The position numbers and the translations under genes were made by a program. Positions 9,097-32,519 of a stretch of DNA of 35,999 nt are shown here, one piece after another. The stretch lies in the IMG/VR virus record IMGVR_UViG_3300015206_000007, positions 1 through 35,999 of that record, one strand, 5' to 3'. This DNA is from a virus. The notes beneath the pieces are model-generated. The model searched no databases. It was not told the origin of the DNA and was given only the letters and a program-made list of their open reading frames with translations. Every line of letters begins with the position of its first letter. The stretch's first letter is position 1.

Positions 9097-9753
9097 CTAC
9101 AGCGCGTTCAGTTGTTTGGCGTCATAGGCAGCCGACGCGCGCTTGCGCCAGGCGCGGACATATCCGCGCAGCACTTCCGACTGGTTTTGGTTGGCCTCGA
9201 AGGCCGCAAACCCCATGCCGGCCTGGTCGACCGTCACGGCCGCCAGCTGGTTGAGCTGGCGAATTTCGATCGGATCCCTGACCGTGGCAGGCAGGCCGGT
9301 GAACTTGGCATCGTTGGTGTAATTGAGCAGCACATGGTGCTTGGCGCCCTCGACCAGTTTGGCGGTCGACTCGACTTCATCGAACGAAGCCTTGTTCGAC
9401 CCGATGACGTGCACCACCGAGATGCGCAAGCGACCTTCCTTGACACCGTCCAGGAACCCGATCTCCGACAGCGTGCGCAGCGTCTTGGAGAGAAGCCCGG
9501 CGCGGATATCGATCAGCGTCACTTGTGCATCGCGCAGGTTGTCGAACACCTCGACCTGGTCGTCGCTCTCCTCCAGATTGACGATCCTGGTCTTGTCGGG
9601 ATGGAAGCGATGCAGCACACCTTGCGGGTGCTCGGTATCGCGCGCGCGAACGCTGATGCCGTGGCCCTCATAATAATCCACCAGGGTGCGGGAGATCGTG
9701 GTCTTGCCGACCCCGCCCTTGTCCGCACCCACGATGACGACATGCGGACTCAT
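9097..9753 (-). CDS. ParA/MinD-type P-loop ATPase
   Basis: 218 aa. Residues 12-19 are KGGVGKTT, the deviant Walker A motif with the signature first Lys that defines the ParA/MinD/SIMIBI class. The segment VTLIDIRAGL (~residues 77-86) fits the Walker A' Asp. The protein is shorter than plasmid ParA, has no N-terminal HTH, and is closer in layout to TraL/VirC1-like ATPases. It sits between DUF2635 and the sheath gene, overlapping the former by ATGA, so it is co-translated with tail proteins. A role in partition, in positioning assembly, or as a non-structural cargo gene is open. The nearest ParB-domain genes are 18-22 kb upstream. Confidence 0.85.
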   Translation of the reverse strand: MSPHVVIVGADKGGVGKTTISRTLVDYYEGHGISVRARDTEHPQGVLHRFHPDKTRIVNLEESDDQVEVFDNLRDAQVTLIDIRAGLLSKTLRTLSEIGFLDGVKEGRLRISVVHVIGSNKASFDEVESTAKLVEGAKHHVLLNYTNDAKFTGLPATVRDPIEIRQLNQLAAVTVDQAGMGFAAFEANQNQSEVLRGYVRAWRKRASAAYDAKQLNAL

Positions 9754-21389: not shown

Positions 21390-21758
21390 TCAACCCTGCC
21401 GCACGATTAAGCTCACAGCTTGTCTGGTCACGCCCACCAGATTACCGATTGCGACAAGCCGGGCACCATCGCGAAATGCATGCTTGATCGCAGCGTTTCT
21501 CTGAACACCCCCGTCCAATTCCTTTCGGAATTTAGCGAGCGCCGCAACCTCTCGCTCATGCCTTTGTTTTTTCGCTTCCGCGACAAGTTGTCTCCTTCGA
21601 AGCTTCCACTTGCTCGGCCGATCCACATAGGTTCGATTGATCCTGTGCATCCGGCCTATTACCGCATTACGCGTTTTGCCAAGCTTCGCAGCGATTTTAC
21701 TCGCACTCGACGTAGGCCATAGCCGGATGAGTTGCCGGTCTTCATGGTCGGTCCACAT
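21390..21758 (-). CDS. GcrA-like DNA-binding protein with a second C-terminal HTH
   Basis: 122 aa from ATG 21758, chosen because it gives MWTDHEDRQLIRLWPTSSAS, overlaps the NusG-like stop (TGATG), and aligns with GcrA. The N-terminal ~45 residues match GcrA (pattern W-T-x-x-x-x-x-x-L-x-x-L-W, then SASKIAAKLGKTRNAVIGRM). GcrA is the sigma70-associated regulator of alphaproteobacterial cell-cycle genes, acting at CcrM-methylated GANTC sites. The middle is basic and helical. The end (DGARLVAIGNLVGVTRQAVS) reads as another HTH, not GcrA's usual C-terminus. It lies just before the late-gene terminator, so a late-promoter regulator is likely. Base composition is below neighbouring genes. Confidence 0.75.
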   Translation of the reverse strand: MWTDHEDRQLIRLWPTSSASKIAAKLGKTRNAVIGRMHRINRTYVDRPSKWKLRRRQLVAEAKKQRHEREVAALAKFRKELDGGVQRNAAIKHAFRDGARLVAIGNLVGVTRQAVSLIVRQG

Positions 21759-22399
21759 CAAGCACACTCCTCTAGCCCGAGAGCTTTCCGTAGTGTCTGA
21801 TTCCGCCCTTCACTGTCTAGTTCTATCAGATCGTCGAAGGCCGACCATGCACGGGTTGTTATGATCTCGTTGCGCAGATCGGCTTCCGTGATCGGCTTTG
21901 GCTTGGCGGCTTTAGCCGATTTGCGGTTTTTCCAGCGACGTTTCTTTTTCGACCTGCGCTGCACAGGCTCGGGATCAGCAGGCGGGATTTCGATGTAAAT
22001 CGGCCGTTCGCGGTTTTCGACCTTTCGCACGATATCGATTTCATCATCGCTCAACGAGCCTACGATCGTGACGACGCCCGGCGTATCCGCCAACCATCGC
22101 CAATGCTGATCGCTAGGCCACATAAACACGAACAGATAGCCCGAAAACATCGGCGCGCGGCGGCCGATCTTGCGACCGCGCTTGACGATGGTTTCGTCGA
22201 CCTCGGGAATGTAGATCCCGAAGCGATGGCCGGCGAGTTCCTCAGCAACGGAAGTTTGTTCGGAGGCGTAAACCTCGACCACGTACCACCTTGGCGATTT
22301 GCCTTTGACGATTTCAGCATTCCGTGGATCACGCGGCTCGTAAGGCCTAGACAGTTCCGCCACGACTTCCGGCGAGAACGCATCCGACAGCGGTTTCAT
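21758..22399 (-). CDS. NusG/RfaH-like NGN-domain protein, candidate antiterminator
   Basis: 213 aa from ATG 22399 with GGAG upstream. Residues ~37-115 form an NGN domain: PRWYVVEVYASEQTSVAEEL, FGIYIPEVDETIVKRGRKIG, and APMFSGYLFVFMWPSDQHWRW, then PGVVTIVG. NGN proteins clamp RNA polymerase and control pausing or termination. The following ~45 residues are very Lys/Arg-rich (QRRSKKKRRWKNRKSAKAAK), and I see no KOW domain, so interaction with NusE/Rho as in cellular NusG is in doubt. The end is acidic-helical. Its place before a strong terminator and the late operon suggests read-through of late transcription. Confidence 0.85.
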   Translation of the reverse strand: MKPLSDAFSPEVVAELSRPYEPRDPRNAEIVKGKSPRWYVVEVYASEQTSVAEELAGHRFGIYIPEVDETIVKRGRKIGRRAPMFSGYLFVFMWPSDQHWRWLADTPGVVTIVGSLSDDEIDIVRKVENRERPIYIEIPPADPEPVQRRSKKKRRWKNRKSAKAAKPKPITEADLRNEIITTRAWSAFDDLIELDSEGRNQTLRKALGLEECA

Positions 22400-22443
22400 T
22401 CAATAGCTCCAACATCTCGATTTCCCCTCGATTTGCTGGCCGT

Positions 22444-22514
22444 CCGGCTTCCGCCGGTCTCACGTCACGAAACGGTTCCTGCCGAGAACCGTTTTTCTTG
22501 TTCCGATCCGGAAC
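22444..22514. promoter_or_regulatory. Inverted-repeat cluster upstream of the NusG-like gene
   Basis: Three short inverted repeats lie upstream of the start at 22399: CCGGC-TTCC-GCCGG (22444-22457), AACGGTTC-7 nt-GAACCGTT (22471-22493), and GTTCCG-ATC-CGGAAC (22500-22514). The second is followed on the + strand by a T-run (22492-22496) and resembles a + strand terminator, although no + strand gene precedes it. On the - strand they could be operator or leader hairpins for NusG expression. I could not assign -35/-10 boxes. Confidence 0.4.
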
Positions 22515-22523
22515 ATGAAACTT

Positions 22524-22780
22524 TGGGAGGGTTGGGAGGATTGATTTTGCTTTTAAAAATCCTCCCGTTCATAAAACCCTTGGTAATCAATGGTTTCTTT
22601 AATTAATGGGAGGGTTGGGAGGATTGGGAGGGTTTTTCATGGTGATGTCCCGTGCGCGCCCGCGCACACGCGCATGTAGGTATAGAAAAACGCTCCCAAT
22701 TGTCCCAACCCTCCCAAACGCAACGAATTCAATGGCTTAATTTTTCGCAATCCTCCCATTCTTGGGAGGGTCGGGAGGAT
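22524..22780. repeat. Array of twelve 9-bp iterons, candidate replication origin
   Basis: The unit is TGGGAGG(G/A)T. Direct copies start at 22524, 22533, 22607, 22616, 22625, 22763 and 22772; inverted ones at 22559, 22690, 22699, 22708 and 22750. They come in tandem runs with an exact 9-base period and are separated by AT-rich stretches (for example 22545-22559, 22595-22606, 22734-22747). Between them is a GC hairpin GTGCGCG-CC-CGCGCAC (22652-22667). The array starts at the stop codon of the P4/D5-type helicase gene. Iterons plus AT-rich DNA next to an SF3 replicase is typical of phage origins such as P4. The trimer at 22607-22633 also fits a G-quadruplex motif. Confidence 0.65.
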
Positions 22781-24948
22781 CAGAACTCGACATCGCCCGC
22801 ATCCTTCGCTCCTTTTTCCTCGTCCCGATCGACCCGGATCGGGTTTCCATTGCTGTCGACGAAGTCGTTCACGCTGCGCGTCAGCTTGACATCGAGGAAC
22901 CACATCACGCTCGATTGCATGCGCATGTAGCCGCGCTCTTCCATCGCCATCGAGAAGCCTTTTTGTTTCCACGCGGTCTCGCCAGATGATTTGCACCAGG
23001 CTTCAAACACCTGGTAGAGCACGCTCGACTGCACCCGATCGCTCGGGCTTTCGACGAGACATGCCGATAGAAAACGCCCGAGCGGATCCGACGCGCTGCG
23101 ATATTGCGCGGTCGCGGCCGTCACGGCGTCCGGCTCGATCAATCCCTTGTCGCACCACAGTCGCAAGCCATCGAGCAGCCGGTTGAGAATGCCGCTCGCC
23201 TCCGCGCGCAGTTTTTCCGCCAGATGAATGTCGCGCTCTTCCTTCGGAATGAAGACGTTGAAGGGCACCAGCCTCAAGCGTCGCCAGATGCCTTCATCGG
23301 CGCCGGAGATCGTGGGGCGGTAATTGCCGGAGATCGTCAATTTGAACTGCGGATAGAACTTGAAGAAATCGCGATTGAGGTGGCGCGCCTGGATCGGCTC
23401 GCCGCCGGTGACGAGCTTGACCATGGCCTCAGCAAGCCGCGAATTCTTTTCCGGCTCCGAGGTGCGCAGCATGCGCACGCCGGGCAGGATCGCGAGATCC
23501 GGCGTGGCTTGTCCCGCGTTGCGCGATTTGCCGTGGTCGAGGAAGGTCTCGATCGGGACCGTCTCGCCGTAGTCGCCGGCGACATAGCTGACCGCGTCGA
23601 CCAGCACCGATTTGCCGTTCGAGCCCTTGCCGTACAGAAACGCCAGCTTTTGTTCGGAGACATCGCCGGTCAGCGACAGGCCGAGCCATTGATGCAGGAA
23701 CACGCGCATCGCGTCCTGTGGCTGTACCCGGGCGATGAACTTGTCATAGTCCGGGCAAACGGCTTTCGGATCGTAATCGACCGGCGAGAGCTTGGTGATT
23801 AGGTCGTCCGGATCATGGCTACGGAAACTGACATAATCCTCGCCGTCGCTTTTCCGCGCAACGACCAGCGTGCCGTTGTTGACGTTGACCTTCATCTTGT
23901 CGGCATCGAGCTTTTCGACGCCGATCGCGAAGTAAGGTGCGCCGCGCTTGGACAATGCGCCGAGCTTGTTGAGGGCTTCCGAGGATCTGCCCCAGCTCGC
24001 GATCTTGTCGGAATAGAGCAGGCCCTTCTTCTCATCAAAGACGAAGTCGCGCGCGCCGGTGTCCGTGCCCTTGATGCCGCTCGATCGAACCTCGTAGGCT
24101 TCGTCCTGGATCGCCCGCACCGTGTCGTGCTCGGCGATCTTGACCAGATCATCGGCGCCGTCGCGGCTCCAGCGCTTGCCGTCCCAGGCGAGCCAGCCCA
24201 GCGCCGGGCACCACAATAGCTTGTCGAGATAGCGCTCGCGAAAGCGCTCAGCGTTGCCGAGGTCGGTGAGCGGGAAAAAAGCGAGCCGCATGTTGCGACG
24301 TCGTTCGGTTTCCACAGCGCGTGGCGGCTTGCGGCGCCCCCCTGCACCCCCCGCAGCGGAAGTTTCCGGCGACAATGCTCCCGTTTGGGAGGGTTGCTCC
24401 GATTCGCCCCCTTCGTCGGGGGGCGCGGGGGCGGCGGCAAAAAAAGACGACGACGGCGAGCCCTCAGAAGAATCCGGAGCATCCACGTCGGCCGAGGGAG
24501 AGGAAGGATCAGTGTCGGCCGCTTCGCGCGGCCGTCTCTCTGAGTGAGGTGCGCGAAGCGTGGCTTGCGCCACGCCGCGCACCTCCGATAAATCGCGAGG
24601 CTGTTTCTTGCCGAGCTTCACGCCGGCTGCGATCGCCGCTTTCACCGCCTTGAGGCCATCGTCGCGGATCAGCTGGCAGGCACTAGCGGCATCCTCGAGG
24701 GCGGCCTTGGCAAAGCCCTCATGCAGCGCGCCGGCGCCGACGAGCTGGCCCAGGCGCTGCGCGGCGCCCGACAGCACCACGCCCCGCCCATCGCCCTCGG
24801 AGCTGCGCACCAGCGCGATCGCGGCGTCGAGCTCGGCCAGGCCGAACTTGCGGATGGCTTCCGCTCGAGCTGCAGGATCCTCGACCACGTCGACGAACAC
24901 CGGCGCGGAATCGACGATCGACAGGATGGCATTTGCGCCGACGGTCAT
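22780..24948 (-). CDS. P4/D5-type primase-helicase (SF3 helicase)
   Basis: 722 aa. Residues ~220-400 are a D5 N-terminal-type domain (LLWCPALGWLAWDGKRWSRD, later SFRSHDPDDLITKLSPVDYD). The SF3 helicase follows, with Walker A GKGSNGKS at 440-447, then VPIETFLDH, DLAILPGVRM, a Walker B-like RTSEPEKNSRL, and KLTISGNYRPTISGADEGIW. The latter is typical of phage/plasmid P4-family initiator helicases. The first ~210 residues (Ala-rich, then an acidic/Ser/Pro linker) have no recognised domain. The CHC2/Toprim primase is a separate gene at 25475-26698. It would unwind at the iteron array just downstream. ATG at 24948 has a weak ribosome site. Confidence 0.92.
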   Translation of the reverse strand: MTVGANAILSIVDSAPVFVDVVEDPAARAEAIRKFGLAELDAAIALVRSSEGDGRGVVLSGAAQRLGQLVGAGALHEGFAKAALEDAASACQLIRDDGLKAVKAAIAAGVKLGKKQPRDLSEVRGVAQATLRAPHSERRPREAADTDPSSPSADVDAPDSSEGSPSSSFFAAAPAPPDEGGESEQPSQTGALSPETSAAGGAGGRRKPPRAVETERRRNMRLAFFPLTDLGNAERFRERYLDKLLWCPALGWLAWDGKRWSRDGADDLVKIAEHDTVRAIQDEAYEVRSSGIKGTDTGARDFVFDEKKGLLYSDKIASWGRSSEALNKLGALSKRGAPYFAIGVEKLDADKMKVNVNNGTLVVARKSDGEDYVSFRSHDPDDLITKLSPVDYDPKAVCPDYDKFIARVQPQDAMRVFLHQWLGLSLTGDVSEQKLAFLYGKGSNGKSVLVDAVSYVAGDYGETVPIETFLDHGKSRNAGQATPDLAILPGVRMLRTSEPEKNSRLAEAMVKLVTGGEPIQARHLNRDFFKFYPQFKLTISGNYRPTISGADEGIWRRLRLVPFNVFIPKEERDIHLAEKLRAEASGILNRLLDGLRLWCDKGLIEPDAVTAATAQYRSASDPLGRFLSACLVESPSDRVQSSVLYQVFEAWCKSSGETAWKQKGFSMAMEERGYMRMQSSVMWFLDVKLTRSVNDFVDSNGNPIRVDRDEEKGAKDAGDVEF

Positions 24949-29468: not shown

Positions 29469-29806
29469 GCTCCTTGTGGGGGTTGTTCGATCAGAAACGC
29501 CGCCGCGCGGCCGAGCGGCGACGCCGGAGACCCGTCGAGATTCCGCTTCATGGATCGGGCGATGTCCGCCGGCGGGCAGCCATATTGCAGCAGCATCGAG
29601 ATCAGGATCGCCCCGTCGCTGGCCAATACATCGAGCGGCGAATTGACCTTCTGCGCGTTGAGGAACACCTCGACGACCGAGCCGAGGATGCCATGCTCGA
29701 TACAGGCCACCTCGCGGCCGAGGCCGACCTTGTAGCGCTGGCCCTCATGCTCGATGGCGATGGTTTCGTGGGCCCGGCGGTTGGCGACGCGATGGCGATG
29801 GGTCAT
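29465..29806 (-). CDS. TSCPD-like small protein (RNR-terminus-related fold)
   Basis: 113 aa. After an N-terminal HTH-free RRAHETIAIEHEGQRYKVGL segment, the rest reads GILGSVVEVFLNAQKVNSPL, then SDGAILISMLLQYGCPPADI and NLDGSPASPLGRAAAFL. This matches the TSCPD-type domain found at the C-terminus of some ribonucleotide reductases and as stand-alone phage proteins (G-x-x-x-E-V-F-L ... LQ-x-G ... SPLG). Here it stands alone without a reductase gene. Its role in a phage is not known. It overlaps its neighbours by ATGA. Confidence 0.65.
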   Translation of the reverse strand: MTHRHRVANRRAHETIAIEHEGQRYKVGLGREVACIEHGILGSVVEVFLNAQKVNSPLDVLASDGAILISMLLQYGCPPADIARSMKRNLDGSPASPLGRAAAFLIEQPPQGA

Positions 29807-30012
29807 GCCGGCACCTTGCGCTTGCGGCTGTTCCAGCTGCGCGTCGCGAGGACACGGGCTCGATCCTCCTCAAGATCGGCGTCGCAAACATTGGGGCCGT
29901 GCGCATAACAATCATTGCAGACATACTGCCATGACGATAAATCCATGCGCTCGACAAAGCCGTCCGTCGATCGGCAAAAGGGGCATGCCTTCGCTTTAGG
30001 GATGCGCGTCAT
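29803..30012 (-). CDS. Lar-like restriction alleviation protein
   Basis: 69 aa with two zinc-type pairs, C10-x2-C13 (KACPFCRS) and C32-x2-C35 (YVCNDCYAHGP), and the final TRSWNSRK. The spacing and the C-x2-C-x-A-x-GP ... WN-x-R pattern are those of the Lar family, named for a lambdoid protein that lowers host type I restriction by promoting DNA modification. Whether this copy is active cannot be told. It is coupled by ATGA to both neighbours. Confidence 0.8.
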   Translation of the reverse strand: MTRIPKAKACPFCRSTDGFVERMDLSSWQYVCNDCYAHGPNVCDADLEEDRARVLATRSWNSRKRKVPA

Positions 30013-30206
30013 CGCTGTTTCTTTGCGATCTCGCCGGCGGCGAGGATTAGGTCCATCGAGAGGCTCCAGATCCGCTCGCCCTCGTCGCGCTGGTTAATCG
30101 GCTCGATCTCGATTTTGAAATCGTGGCCTTCGCGCGTCATGGTGACCCGGCGCCCATAGCGATCGCGGCCGAGCTCCCATTTGGTTGAGATCGGGCGCGA
30201 GCTCAT
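30009..30206 (-). CDS. Unknown 65-aa protein
   Basis: 65 aa from ATG 30206, coupled by ATGA on both sides, so probably a real gene. The sequence is KWELGRDRYGRRVTMTREGH followed by a helical stretch with QRDEGERIWSLSMDLILAAG, amphipathic. No family is recognised. Confidence 0.55.
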   Translation of the reverse strand: MSSRPISTKWELGRDRYGRRVTMTREGHDFKIEIEPINQRDEGERIWSLSMDLILAAGEIAKKQR

Positions 30207-31327
30207 GTGGCCACTCCCTTGGTGCCGGCGCGGCGGGCAACGGGATGCTGCGTGAAACGAATGGCATCATCCGGCTTGGAAAGAGTTTCCCGGCAGCCGG
30301 GAGGAATCCAGAACGGCGCCCGCGGTGAAGCGCCCTTGACCCAAAGCAGCCAGATGTACGCCGTTGCCGTCGATCCCTCAGGGTCCCAGCGCCCCTTGCA
30401 GAGATTGACCCTCTCGGCGAAGAACGCGATCAGCGTCGGCGGATTGTCCTTGAAGACGCGCTCATAACGTCCGCCGGTTTCCAACCATTGCAGCCGCACG
30501 AACATCGCGGCGCCGGACCGTGCGAGCTCAAGCGCCCTCAGAACGAATTTTTCGGAATTGTCCCCAAAGGGAGGATTGGTGATAATCCAGGCTGCATCCT
30601 GGTCGCGCCGGTTGAACTGCTCGCACTCCAGAAAATCGACCGTAAAGTCGCTATAGCCGTAGTCGTGAATGTCGCTGGCGGTTACGTCGTCAAAATATTC
30701 GCGCAACACCTCGGCGATATGGCCCTCCCCGCATGCCGGCTCCCATGCGATCTGGCGACGGCAATCGCCGCGCCGTCCAATCTGCGGGAACACGCGCTCG
30801 ATCAGCGCCCGCGTGGCCCAGGGCGGCGTCGGAAAATAATCGAGGCTGTCATCCGGCTCAAGGCGCGATGCCATGATCGCGCGGCCGCTTTCCATGCTGC
30901 TACCGCCCATCGGATCGACGACAATCGCCTTTCCTGATGCCATTCGCGAGCGCATGCCCGTGATAGCAGCCGTGAAATCATCTTCGGAGAGTTTGGCGGC
31001 CGACTGCGCCTGCATCGACAGTTTCTTGTCGACGCCGATGTCCTTCAGCGACGCCGGCGGGATCTCGCCTTCCGACACCTTGACCGGGCGCCCCTCGCGC
31101 AGGTGGCCGGCTTCCTTGGCCCGCTGCAGCAAGACGCCGAGCCAGCGCTCGACCCTCATCTGGAATTCGGTCGCGTCCGCCAGGAGTGCCCGATCGCGCA
31201 CTTGTTTGGCATGCAGCTTGACGTGGTCGAGCTCGTCCCGGCTTTTCAAGACCACGTCGACCGCCGTCGACTTCAGCGCTGTCGCCAGAGCCGCCATGGC
31301 GCGATCGTAATGGGCGAGCATGGTCAT
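30203..31327 (-). CDS. DNA adenine methyltransferase-like protein with extra N-terminal domain
   Basis: 374 aa. Residues ~150-330 form a class I methyltransferase: SAM motif EPACGEG (196-202), an acidic ASDIHDYG loop, then the catalytic NPPF (251-254), as in N6-adenine enzymes with motif I first. An FPTPPWATRALIERVF segment precedes motif I. Residues 1-140 form a separate helical domain (DRAMAALATALKSTAVDVVL, then RVERWLGVLLQRAKEAGHLR), like the DUF3102-type regions of phage/plasmid proteins. The enzyme may protect phage DNA or alter regulator binding. Target sequence cannot be predicted. Confidence 0.82.
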   Translation of the reverse strand: MTMLAHYDRAMAALATALKSTAVDVVLKSRDELDHVKLHAKQVRDRALLADATEFQMRVERWLGVLLQRAKEAGHLREGRPVKVSEGEIPPASLKDIGVDKKLSMQAQSAAKLSEDDFTAAITGMRSRMASGKAIVVDPMGGSSMESGRAIMASRLEPDDSLDYFPTPPWATRALIERVFPQIGRRGDCRRQIAWEPACGEGHIAEVLREYFDDVTASDIHDYGYSDFTVDFLECEQFNRRDQDAAWIITNPPFGDNSEKFVLRALELARSGAAMFVRLQWLETGGRYERVFKDNPPTLIAFFAERVNLCKGRWDPEGSTATAYIWLLWVKGASPRAPFWIPPGCRETLSKPDDAIRFTQHPVARRAGTKGVAT

Positions 31328-31707
31328 GCCGCCCTCGCCTGGTCGAGGAGTGCCGCGACTGCCGCCTTCGATCTCGCAGGCATTCGATAGCCTTGGCCCC
31401 AGACGGTTTCGACTTCAACGGCGAAGGGTTTGAGCTTCTTGCGCAGCCTAGAGATAAAGACGTCGACAATCTTGATGTCGGGCTCCAGATCGACGCGGTC
31501 GCTGTAGAGCGCGTTCATCGCGTGCTGCTTTGTCAGCATCTCGCATTTGAACAGTGCGCCTAACATTTTGCTCTCGTATGCCGTAAGCTGGAAAACGAGC
31601 GGCGCCTCGAGGCGAAGGCCCATGGTTTCCTCGAGGGCGCGAATTTTCTCGCGAAGCTCCTCGTTCTCGGTTTCGAGCATCTGGACGTATTCGTCTCGGA
31701 GCGTCAT
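31324..31707 (-). CDS. CtrA-like winged-helix DNA-binding protein without receiver domain
   Basis: 127 aa from ATG 31707, coupled as ATGA to the upstream gene (the frame is open 11 codons further up). Residues 1-31 form a short coiled coil (MTLRDEYVQMLETENEELRE). The rest is an OmpR/PhoB-type winged helix: LTAYESKMLGALFK, LTKQHAMNALYSD, DIKIVDVFISRLRKKL and VETVWGQGYRM. The recognition-helix region is very close to CtrA from memory (E-P-x-x-K-I-x-D-V-F-I-x-x-L-R-K-K-L). CtrA is the essential alphaproteobacterial cell-cycle response regulator. Losing the receiver would make binding independent of phosphorylation; the coiled coil may replace it for dimerisation. Confidence 0.85.
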   Translation of the reverse strand: MTLRDEYVQMLETENEELREKIRALEETMGLRLEAPLVFQLTAYESKMLGALFKCEMLTKQHAMNALYSDRVDLEPDIKIVDVFISRLRKKLKPFAVEVETVWGQGYRMPARSKAAVAALLDQARAA

Positions 31708-32519
31708 GTCGCCCCGCTTCGCGCGAGCCTGCGCAGCCATCGGTTCGCGACCTCGCGAAAGATCGGCGTCACGTCGGATTTAGCCTTGGCATGTGCTTTG
31801 TTGAGCCCGTCTGTTCCCTCGATTCGAATGGCCGCGGTCAACTCTTCGAGGTCGACGTCTTTTAGCTCGACGCAAATGATGCGCTCCGCTGCCTGTATTT
31901 CGGCGGCGCTGATCGGCGCGCGCTTGGCCTTGGCCAGGCACTGCAGCACCTTACGGGCGGGGATCACGCCGCGCCGCTTCACTAAAGATCTGATGAGGCC
32001 GATGCAGCCGCAATCGCCTTCGGCTATCACCGACTGCGGGGAGATGTTGCGGATTCGGACGCCGGCGCGCCGGCACACGTTGTCTACGTCTACTGCATCC
32101 GGATCGCCAGAGGCCAGCAGCGCGCGATAGATATCCATCGGCGAAACCACAACGCGGTCAGTGTTGTGACCTACGAAAGCGCGCGCACGTTCGTCAACGC
32201 CGTCGGCCTGGACGATGAAGACCGGGATTTGAGGGATGCCCAGCGACGCAGCGACGATGGCGGTATGCTGGCCGTCGACGATATGGAGCGATGCGGGCCC
32301 GGCTTGCACGACGATCGGCGGCTTCAACCTATTCCAGGAAAACTGCTCGATCATCTTGCGGATCAACGCGATCGAGCGCCGTGACAGATCGCGCTGGTAG
32401 GTGGCGTCGACCAGCAGATCGGTCGGGGCGACCCATTTCAACGATGGTTTCACGCCATCGAAAGCCGCCGGCTTGAGGTCCGGGAAGTTCATCGGCTTGA
32501 TGGCGCGGAGCTGCGTCAT
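31704..32519 (-). CDS. ParB-like nuclease-domain protein, short form
   Basis: 271 aa. The core is ParB-type: VDATYQRDLSRRSIALIRKM, then PPIVVQAGPASLHIVDGQHT and ARAFVGHNTDRVVV, with H-I-V-D-G-Q-H as the hallmark. It has no clear HTH near the domain as in full ParB; the C-terminus is helical (LEELTAAIRIEGTDGLNKAH). Such proteins are frequent in phage accessory blocks and their roles differ from segregation. It is a second, unrelated-looking copy besides the large ParB at 27549. ATGA overlaps occur on both sides. Confidence 0.82.
   Translation of the reverse strand: MTQLRAIKPMNFPDLKPAAFDGVKPSLKWVAPTDLLVDATYQRDLSRRSIALIRKMIEQFSWNRLKPPIVVQAGPASLHIVDGQHTAIVAASLGIPQIPVFIVQADGVDERARAFVGHNTDRVVVSPMDIYRALLASGDPDAVDVDNVCRRAGVRIRNISPQSVIAEGDCGCIGLIRSLVKRRGVIPARKVLQCLAKAKRAPISAAEIQAAERIICVELKDVDLEELTAAIRIEGTDGLNKAHAKAKSDVTPIFREVANRWLRRLARSGAT

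Follow-up and report, generated by a model that had tools for sequence, protein, structure and literature searches.

A receiver-less CtrA-type protein with a predicted coiled coil is encoded beside a ParB-fold protein in a contractile-tailed phage

Phage-encoded CtrA proteins without a receiver are, as such, already known: the CtrA proteins of roseophages, e.g., RDJLPhi1, lack the N-terminal response-regulator domain and retain the activator domain, and the roseophage-type gene is located between homologues of GafA and rcc01866 (Fogg, 2019; PMC6363796). In addition, phiCbK-like phages are described as carrying homologues of GcrA (PMC3556154), which are likewise phage-encoded relatives of a Caulobacter cell-cycle regulator, albeit of GcrA and not of CtrA. 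According to a 2025 survey, mobile elements frequently encode ParB-fold proteins, which in phages are often joined to methyltransferase domains; the terms CtrA, OmpR, and winged are absent from its main text (PMC12704722). Besides, the KorB–KorA system of plasmid RK2 resembles the locus reported here in combining a ParB-fold protein with a small DNA-binding partner (PMC11790492). Among the titles and abstract openings of the open-licence literature, no recognisable account was found of a coiled-coil CtrA-type family or of a pairing with ParB-fold proteins. The coiled-coil CtrA-type family with a ParB-fold partner described below seems to be distinct, and new as a variant.

The stretch analysed here (the window) corresponds to the full length of a virus record (35,999 bases) that is possibly a fragment itself. 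It encodes a contractile-tailed phage, with tail sheath, tail tube, and baseplate hub genes as well as portal, head maturation protease, major head protein, and large terminase genes assigned by PHROGs; a ParA-like P-loop ATPase gene (9097-9753; PHROG 164, E 2.1e-4) is found within the structural cluster, beside the tail sheath gene. The CtrA-type reading frame (Table 1) was confirmed as a real gene. Its ATG overlaps the stop codon of the upstream gene (ATGA), and its stop overlaps by 4 bp the start of the methyltransferase-like gene, which thus follows immediately and not, as the sequence-only reading had it, one gene away. A longer form starting at the ATG at 31740 is unsupported by relatives: L052, L129, L130, and L208 are readable from an identical MTLRDDYV start in the alignment, and the open frame of the first three begins one residue ahead of it, so that the 127-aa start is preferred. 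The same gene block also contains a Lar-like restriction alleviation protein (29803-30012; PF14354, 31.4 bits, cut-off 28.6).

Table 1. Positions of the CtrA-type gene, its parts, and associated genes in the window
Feature	Position	Strand	Basis
CtrA-type receiver-less regulator, 127 aa	31324..31707	-	start ATG 31707; Pfam, NCBIfam, alignment
N-terminal helix, residues 3-29 (predicted coiled coil)	31621..31701	-	AlphaFold2 model; conserved in alignment
CtrA-type winged helix, residues about 40-109	31381..31590	-	Pfam, NCBIfam, tree, fold searches
Recognition helix, residues 79-95 (KIVDVFISRLRKKL region)	31423..31473	-	AlphaFold2 model; CtrA match
C-terminal Ala-Ala, possible ClpXP degron	31327..31332	-	family enrichment
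ParB-fold gene, 271 aa, recurrent upstream partner	31704..32519	-	PHROG 1033 ParB-like; model; Foldseek; adjacency
DNA methyltransferase-like gene, directly downstream	30203..31327	-	PHROG 799; gene order in relatives
GcrA-like N-terminal domain protein, 125 aa	21390..21767	-	PF07750 above cut-off
NusG-like antitermination protein, upstream of GcrA-like gene	21758..22399	-	PF02357 60.8 bits; PHROG 6386

The relation of the winged helix to CtrA is supported by several rankings. The window protein matches Pfam Trans_reg_C (PF00486) with 42 bits (gathering score 26.2), and NCBIfam places CtrA first with 45.5-45.8 bits and RpaB second with 27.2; the CtrA model is also matched by all 35 receiver-less family members, while the window protein lies far below the full-length cut-off of the CtrA equivalog NF045991 (45.8 vs 350 bits). 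In a Sinorhizobium meliloti (S. meliloti) record with nine OmpR-type domains, CtrA was the best match (38.7 bits; next 26). Conversely, a profile of the 35 receiver-less members picked out one domain per genome at 72-75 bits in ten member-carrying genomes; all nine of these domains that were fetched belong to full-length CtrA (453-464 bits with the CtrA profile), the tenth is an 88-aa frame at a contig end, and the matches under this top tier reach at most 46 bits, except for one of 66 bits in a 79-aa frame. A 30-row domain tree separates the window protein, 14 viral rows, and seven bacterial CtrA rows from eight OmpR-type paralogues, all from one S. meliloti record, with support of 99/92; the viral rows were partly fetched with a DIKIVDV pattern and are to that extent biased towards CtrA, which leaves the window and the cellular rows unaffected. 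Inside the CtrA side, the placing of the window protein is weak, its nearest neighbour being L009 (51% identity). A tblastn search against phages matched 30 of 50,697 records at E<=0.01, namely 29 Rhodobacter, Roseobacter, and Paracoccus phages, with the matches in RDJL Phi 1 and 2 annotated as CtrA, and one unassigned fecal phage. Among plasmids, 52 records were matched; in the best 30 of these, the annotated genes under the match are all named CtrA or response regulator, and the seven CtrA matches inspected are all full-length with a receiver.

That an ordinary OmpR-type DNA-binding protein resembles CtrA by chance appears highly improbable to us. Such a reading could invoke the shortness of the shared region, only about 70 residues, and the Foldseek search, where ArlR and SaeR led the PDB matches with E 1.2e-3 and no match fell under 0.001; two PDB sequence searches returned no chain named CtrA, and CtrA was therefore not comparable there. 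PDB families missing from the fold-search lists were given no evidential weight. OmpR-type domains came out on top against the PDB, with a realigned Z of about 10 for ArlR and CovR, and uncharacterised phage proteins were the best hits among viral models, where the CtrA of RDJL Phi 2 was matched at 4.9e-4 with 44% identity; this last match speaks against the ordinary-OmpR reading. The score leads and the tree have largely refuted it already: CtrA is ahead of the runner-up by 18 bits in NCBIfam, 13 in the S. meliloti record, and at least 26 with the 35-member profile (one short match apart), so that a plain OmpR-type domain is rejected by all three and by the tree. The sequence-only reading had quoted two stretches as CtrA signatures, both of which are present (EPDIKIVDVFISRLRKKL and VETVWGQGY); that the likeness goes beyond OmpR-type domains in general held up in NCBIfam and in the S. 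meliloti record, and the closest relatives did not turn out to be unrelated OmpR domains.

The window protein shares with alphaproteobacterial CtrA the winged helix, the recognition-helix pattern K-I-x-D-V-F, and the wing pattern W-G-x-G-Y, and differs in having neither receiver nor phospho-acceptor nor beta-platform, with a coiled-coil helix and a C-terminal helix in their place. A profile of seven CtrA sequences aligns with it only from position 149, by which the receiver is judged absent. No receiver is present either in the AlphaFold2 model (pLDDT 92.7 over 127 aa), which consists of a 27-residue helix (3-29), the wing-domain helices 43-54, 60-68, and 79-95, and an added C-terminal helix (111-126); the only modelled strands of at least three residues form the wing hairpin (100-102 and 106-108), and the four-stranded N-terminal sheet, or beta-platform, of OmpR/PhoB-type domains is missing. 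Computation thus shows the receiver together with the N-terminal beta-platform to be replaced, in the model, by a predicted coiled-coil helix. The earlier proposals that the phosphorylation domain is missing and that a short coiled coil stands in its place are both borne out, the latter by a conserved stretch modelled as one helix.

The CtrA proteins of the roseophages (RDJLPhi1 gp37 and RDJL Phi 2) are alike in that a phage gene encodes a CtrA-type winged helix without receiver. Their CtrA profile matches start at positions 120 and 133, compared with 149 for the window protein, the extra residues look like beta-strands by eye, and no coiled coil was seen by eye. They carry another C-terminal extension, and no ParB-like gene was found in the 4-6 kb fetched. 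In the window, the CtrA-type gene is flanked by a ParB-fold gene and a methyltransferase-like gene. A receiver-less CtrA-type wing domain is also encoded by Rhodobacter phage RcExplorer, Roseobacter phage RDJL3, and Paracoccus phage R3; by eye, their N-terminal stretch differs, and the proteins of RDJL3 and R3 are extended at the C-terminus. In another viral CtrA-type protein (L018:5437-6216), the match reaches back to CtrA-profile position 80, as would be the case with a residual part of the receiver.

The window protein has relatives in numerous viruses and prophages, the majority of them from Rhizobium-type bacteria. A first profile search of genome contigs with a two-sequence alignment found no relatives; scans with a four-sequence alignment gave 127 confirmed loci in genome contigs, of which 80 were kept, and 66 viral loci. 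The genome-contig loci are mostly alphaproteobacterial (Hyphomicrobiales, Mesorhizobium, Rhizobium, Shinella, Pleomorphomonas, and others), with a minority from Bacillota, and at least seven of 199 genomes of one order, including the centre genome chosen for having one, contain a match at E<=1e-25, with up to 22 candidates scored in each genome. The receiver-less loci number 89 with L009 included and 70 once near-copies are merged, a set that includes L155 and L197, which open at a contig end and could be normal CtrA, L158, whose principal match is the fragment of a frame, and the weak L267 (33.9 bits).

A partner missing from the sequence-only reading recurs in these loci, namely the ParB-fold gene that overlaps the CtrA-type gene from upstream. 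ParB-like genes of one sequence family were found in 44 of the 70 non-redundant receiver-less loci, using a profile derived from these loci themselves on the basis of sequence rather than position. In all 44, the gene is adjacent, i.e., within 800 bases on the same strand (3.4 expected by random placement), counting seven loci with a tandem second copy in between. It lies upstream in 36 loci, where 29 overlap the CtrA-like reading frame (with script-chosen starts) and the other seven are 233-387 bases off, the room being filled by the second tandem copy; in zinc-ribbon forms it is usually downstream, the coiled-coil and zinc-ribbon classes following a rough script rule under which several rows classed as other are coiled-coil by eye and the zinc-ribbon label of L232 is wrong. 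No ParB-like gene was found in the fetched stretches of the remaining 26 loci, roseophage rows among them, nor within ±3 kb in Rhodobacter and Paracoccus phages. A ParB-like gene without CtrA-like neighbour was present in six of eight cases among loci fetched by their methyltransferase, and the count was 0/37 in non-redundant receiver-bearing loci, which is a weak control because most of these loci are chromosomal, random placement within loci being the better one. The ParB-like protein of the window was modelled with a pLDDT of 93.5 and matched in Foldseek to ParB (1.4e-5), Noc (9.1e-5), and KorB (1.0e-3), with query TM-scores of 0.3-0.4 and identities of about 12-15%. The order ParB-like, CtrA-like, methyltransferase seen in the window recurs in L052, L120, L128, L129, L130, and L210.

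Tandem receiver-less wing-domain genes were observed in 14 loci, some of them near-copies (L134, L135, L158, L215, L221, L223, L227, L230, L231, L232, L234, L237, L248, and L258). In 13 of these, the first copy has no CtrA signature, with an ESH-type helix and a wing without WGxGY, whereas both copies are CtrA-like in L248; the divergent first copies hint at heterodimers. Furthermore, in L104, L106, and L111, a zinc-ribbon protein with a divergent wing domain is encoded directly upstream of the same methyltransferase family, and in L104 this gene follows one resembling Mu gp16/GemA, which we take to be roughly the position of mor in Mu.

The window protein ends in RAA, and a terminal Ala-Ala is found in 24 of 35 family members, itself among them, compared with 77 of 626 long background reading frames from the same loci. 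It is present in 12 of 22 members after merging at 60% identity, and the excess is seen both with the ATGA overlap (16/23 vs 39/179) and without it (8/12 vs 37/444). Such an ending occurs in 13 of 44 ParB-like proteins. Only five of 52 receiver-bearing CtrA-type rows, three of them being one S. meliloti gene, end in Ala-Ala, and the tail is thus not simply inherited from CtrA. Caulobacter CtrA is stabilised when its terminal alanines are changed to aspartate or its last three residues are lost (PMC4433202). By analogy, the Ala-Ala tail is a possible ClpXP degron, and turnover of the phage protein may be envisaged. Given this enrichment, it is doubtful that the protein is simply a constitutive factor, as had been suggested from the sequence.

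In a host take-over, which is the view of the sequence-only reading, the unphosphorylated protein would occupy CtrA boxes of the host, where it may block CtrA or mimic it (e.g., at sites for flagella, pili, division, or the origin), and the cell cycle would thereby be locked or uncoupled. One point in favour of this view is the recognition helix: over an 18-residue stretch from EPDIK, the window protein is identical to S. meliloti CtrA at 13 positions and the 35 family members at 9-16, in contrast to eight other OmpR domains with 3-8 matches to CtrA (4-9 to the window protein), and the CtrA-type wing Trp is kept in all 35 members. On the other hand, the wing Arg of CtrA is exchanged for Gln in the window protein and in 28 of 35 members, and the window protein has Ser-Arg at the Cys-Lys positions of the CtrA recognition helix, where relatives retain Cys (34/35) and Lys (33/35). 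With the beta-platform lost and the dimer geometry presumably changed, the spacing may not fit TTAA-N7-TTAA. This site was not found in the window with up to one mismatch (0 sites, 0.95 expected), so that any CtrA boxes targeted in a host take-over would have to belong to the host or to phage sequence outside the window. Binding of CtrA to phage DNA in vitro (PMC9437464) and a requirement of CtrA for infection by Jorvik (PMC10589892), also favour a role at host sites, whereas the linkage to the ParB-fold gene suggests a function local to the phage and the Ala-Ala tail argues against a lasting competitor. Overall, we consider a host take-over unlikely, and competition with host CtrA as possible.

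The other searches for binding sites gave little to build on. Sites similar to TTAACCAT are at chance level in the window (8 vs 6.2). In 59 receiver-less viral loci, seven CtrA boxes were counted against 1.2 expected, an excess not taken as support because L249 and L250, with two identical sites at identical distance, appear to represent a single phage twice and L267 belongs only weakly to the family. A direct-repeat scan for an operator found none, its top rows having only spacings of 9 and 12, which we attribute to codon periodicity. Four of 15 TTAA sites cluster in the gap at 22400-22779, and nothing is claimed from this in view of the higher AT content there (GC 0.50). CcrM methylation sites (GANTC) are depleted in the window (87 sites vs 192.5 expected).

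The window has 11 copies of [TC]CCTCCCA, and eight of them lie, in both orientations, in an array of short repeats (22524-22782) that occupies the gap between the primase/helicase gene and the NusG-like gene. The array is present at the corresponding position in L130/L293, and the motif repeats in the corresponding gap of L291 and L292. We regard the array as a candidate origin or regulatory leader. If the CtrA-type and ParB-fold proteins bound to this array, or to another origin, they would control phage DNA replication or the maintenance of a lysogen, for which the conserved placing of the array and the motif repeats can be quoted; CtrA is known to bind the Caulobacter origin, which counts in the same direction. 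Nevertheless, nothing directly links the CtrA-type protein to the array, whose 9-bp period is unlike the roughly 11-bp period of OmpR-type sites, and homologues of the window primases are found in only a few of the fetched stretches with a CtrA-like/ParB pair. A function in replication or partition is thus quite improbable in our estimation.

A GcrA-like gene is indeed present in the genome, as the sequence-only reading had stated, while the partnership with the CtrA-type protein that it proposed could not be substantiated. The gene is about 9.6 kb from the CtrA-type reading frame, and its product matches PF07750 with 36.2 bits (cut-off 26.9) over positions 2-64 of 155 only. GcrA domains above the Pfam cut-off were detected in three of 19 further records whose receiver-less domain is CtrA-like or divergent, compared with two of 40 methyltransferase records, picked from 80 methyltransferase loci, without such a domain in the fetched stretch (four of 40 at E<=0.01); co-occurrence is therefore unconvincing. 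In the relatives L291-L293, the fetched surroundings of the NusG-like gene (7-8 kb) yielded no GcrA-like gene. The NusG-like and GcrA-like genes overlap (21390-22399) and are located between replication and late genes, where they may form a late-gene switch.

We favour the reading that the effector half of CtrA has been made into a coiled-coil dimer which regulates transcription together with its ParB-fold neighbour, at a probability of roughly 45%. The CtrA-type gene overlaps the upstream ParB-fold gene and lies on the same strand as the replication genes, as computation shows, and the two would be co-expressed early. The coiled coil would pair two wing domains permanently, so that phosphorylation would not be needed, and the dimer may bind two half-sites related to the TTAA half-sites of CtrA. 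At these sites, the ParB-fold protein could work as KorB does with KorA, a phage promoter thereby being repressed or switched. KorA itself belongs to a different class of small DNA-binding proteins; of the clamp-lock likeness, the ParB fold is present in the partner encoded by the window, and CTP use and locking are hypothetical here. If the terminal Ala-Ala directs ClpXP-type turnover, the protein would be short-lived and its effect would follow its synthesis. In our preferred reading, the protein would act chiefly at promoters of the phage and might affect CtrA targets of the host as a side effect.

As quite a long shot, one may speculate on a widespread two-gene phage switch, in which a ParB-fold sliding clamp is combined with a coiled-coil CtrA-type lock that carries a ClpXP-type tail and forms tandem heterodimers. 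If this were true, phospho-control would have been lost and a ClpXP-type tail gained, which would tie the phage programme to the very proteolytic clock by which CtrA is cleared at the G1-S transition, and second tandem copies, whose recognition helix differs, would enter heterodimers that recognise composite sites. If the preferred reading of a coiled-coil dimer acting with its ParB-fold neighbour is right, phages of Rhizobium-type bacteria would have recruited the DNA-binding half of the master cell-cycle regulator of their hosts in a form free of phosphorylation. The pairing with a ParB-fold protein would then offer a concrete and inexpensive system in which to ask if the alphaproteobacterial cell cycle is read or rewritten by phages of this kind, and a test case for KorB–KorA-like clamp locking beyond plasmids.
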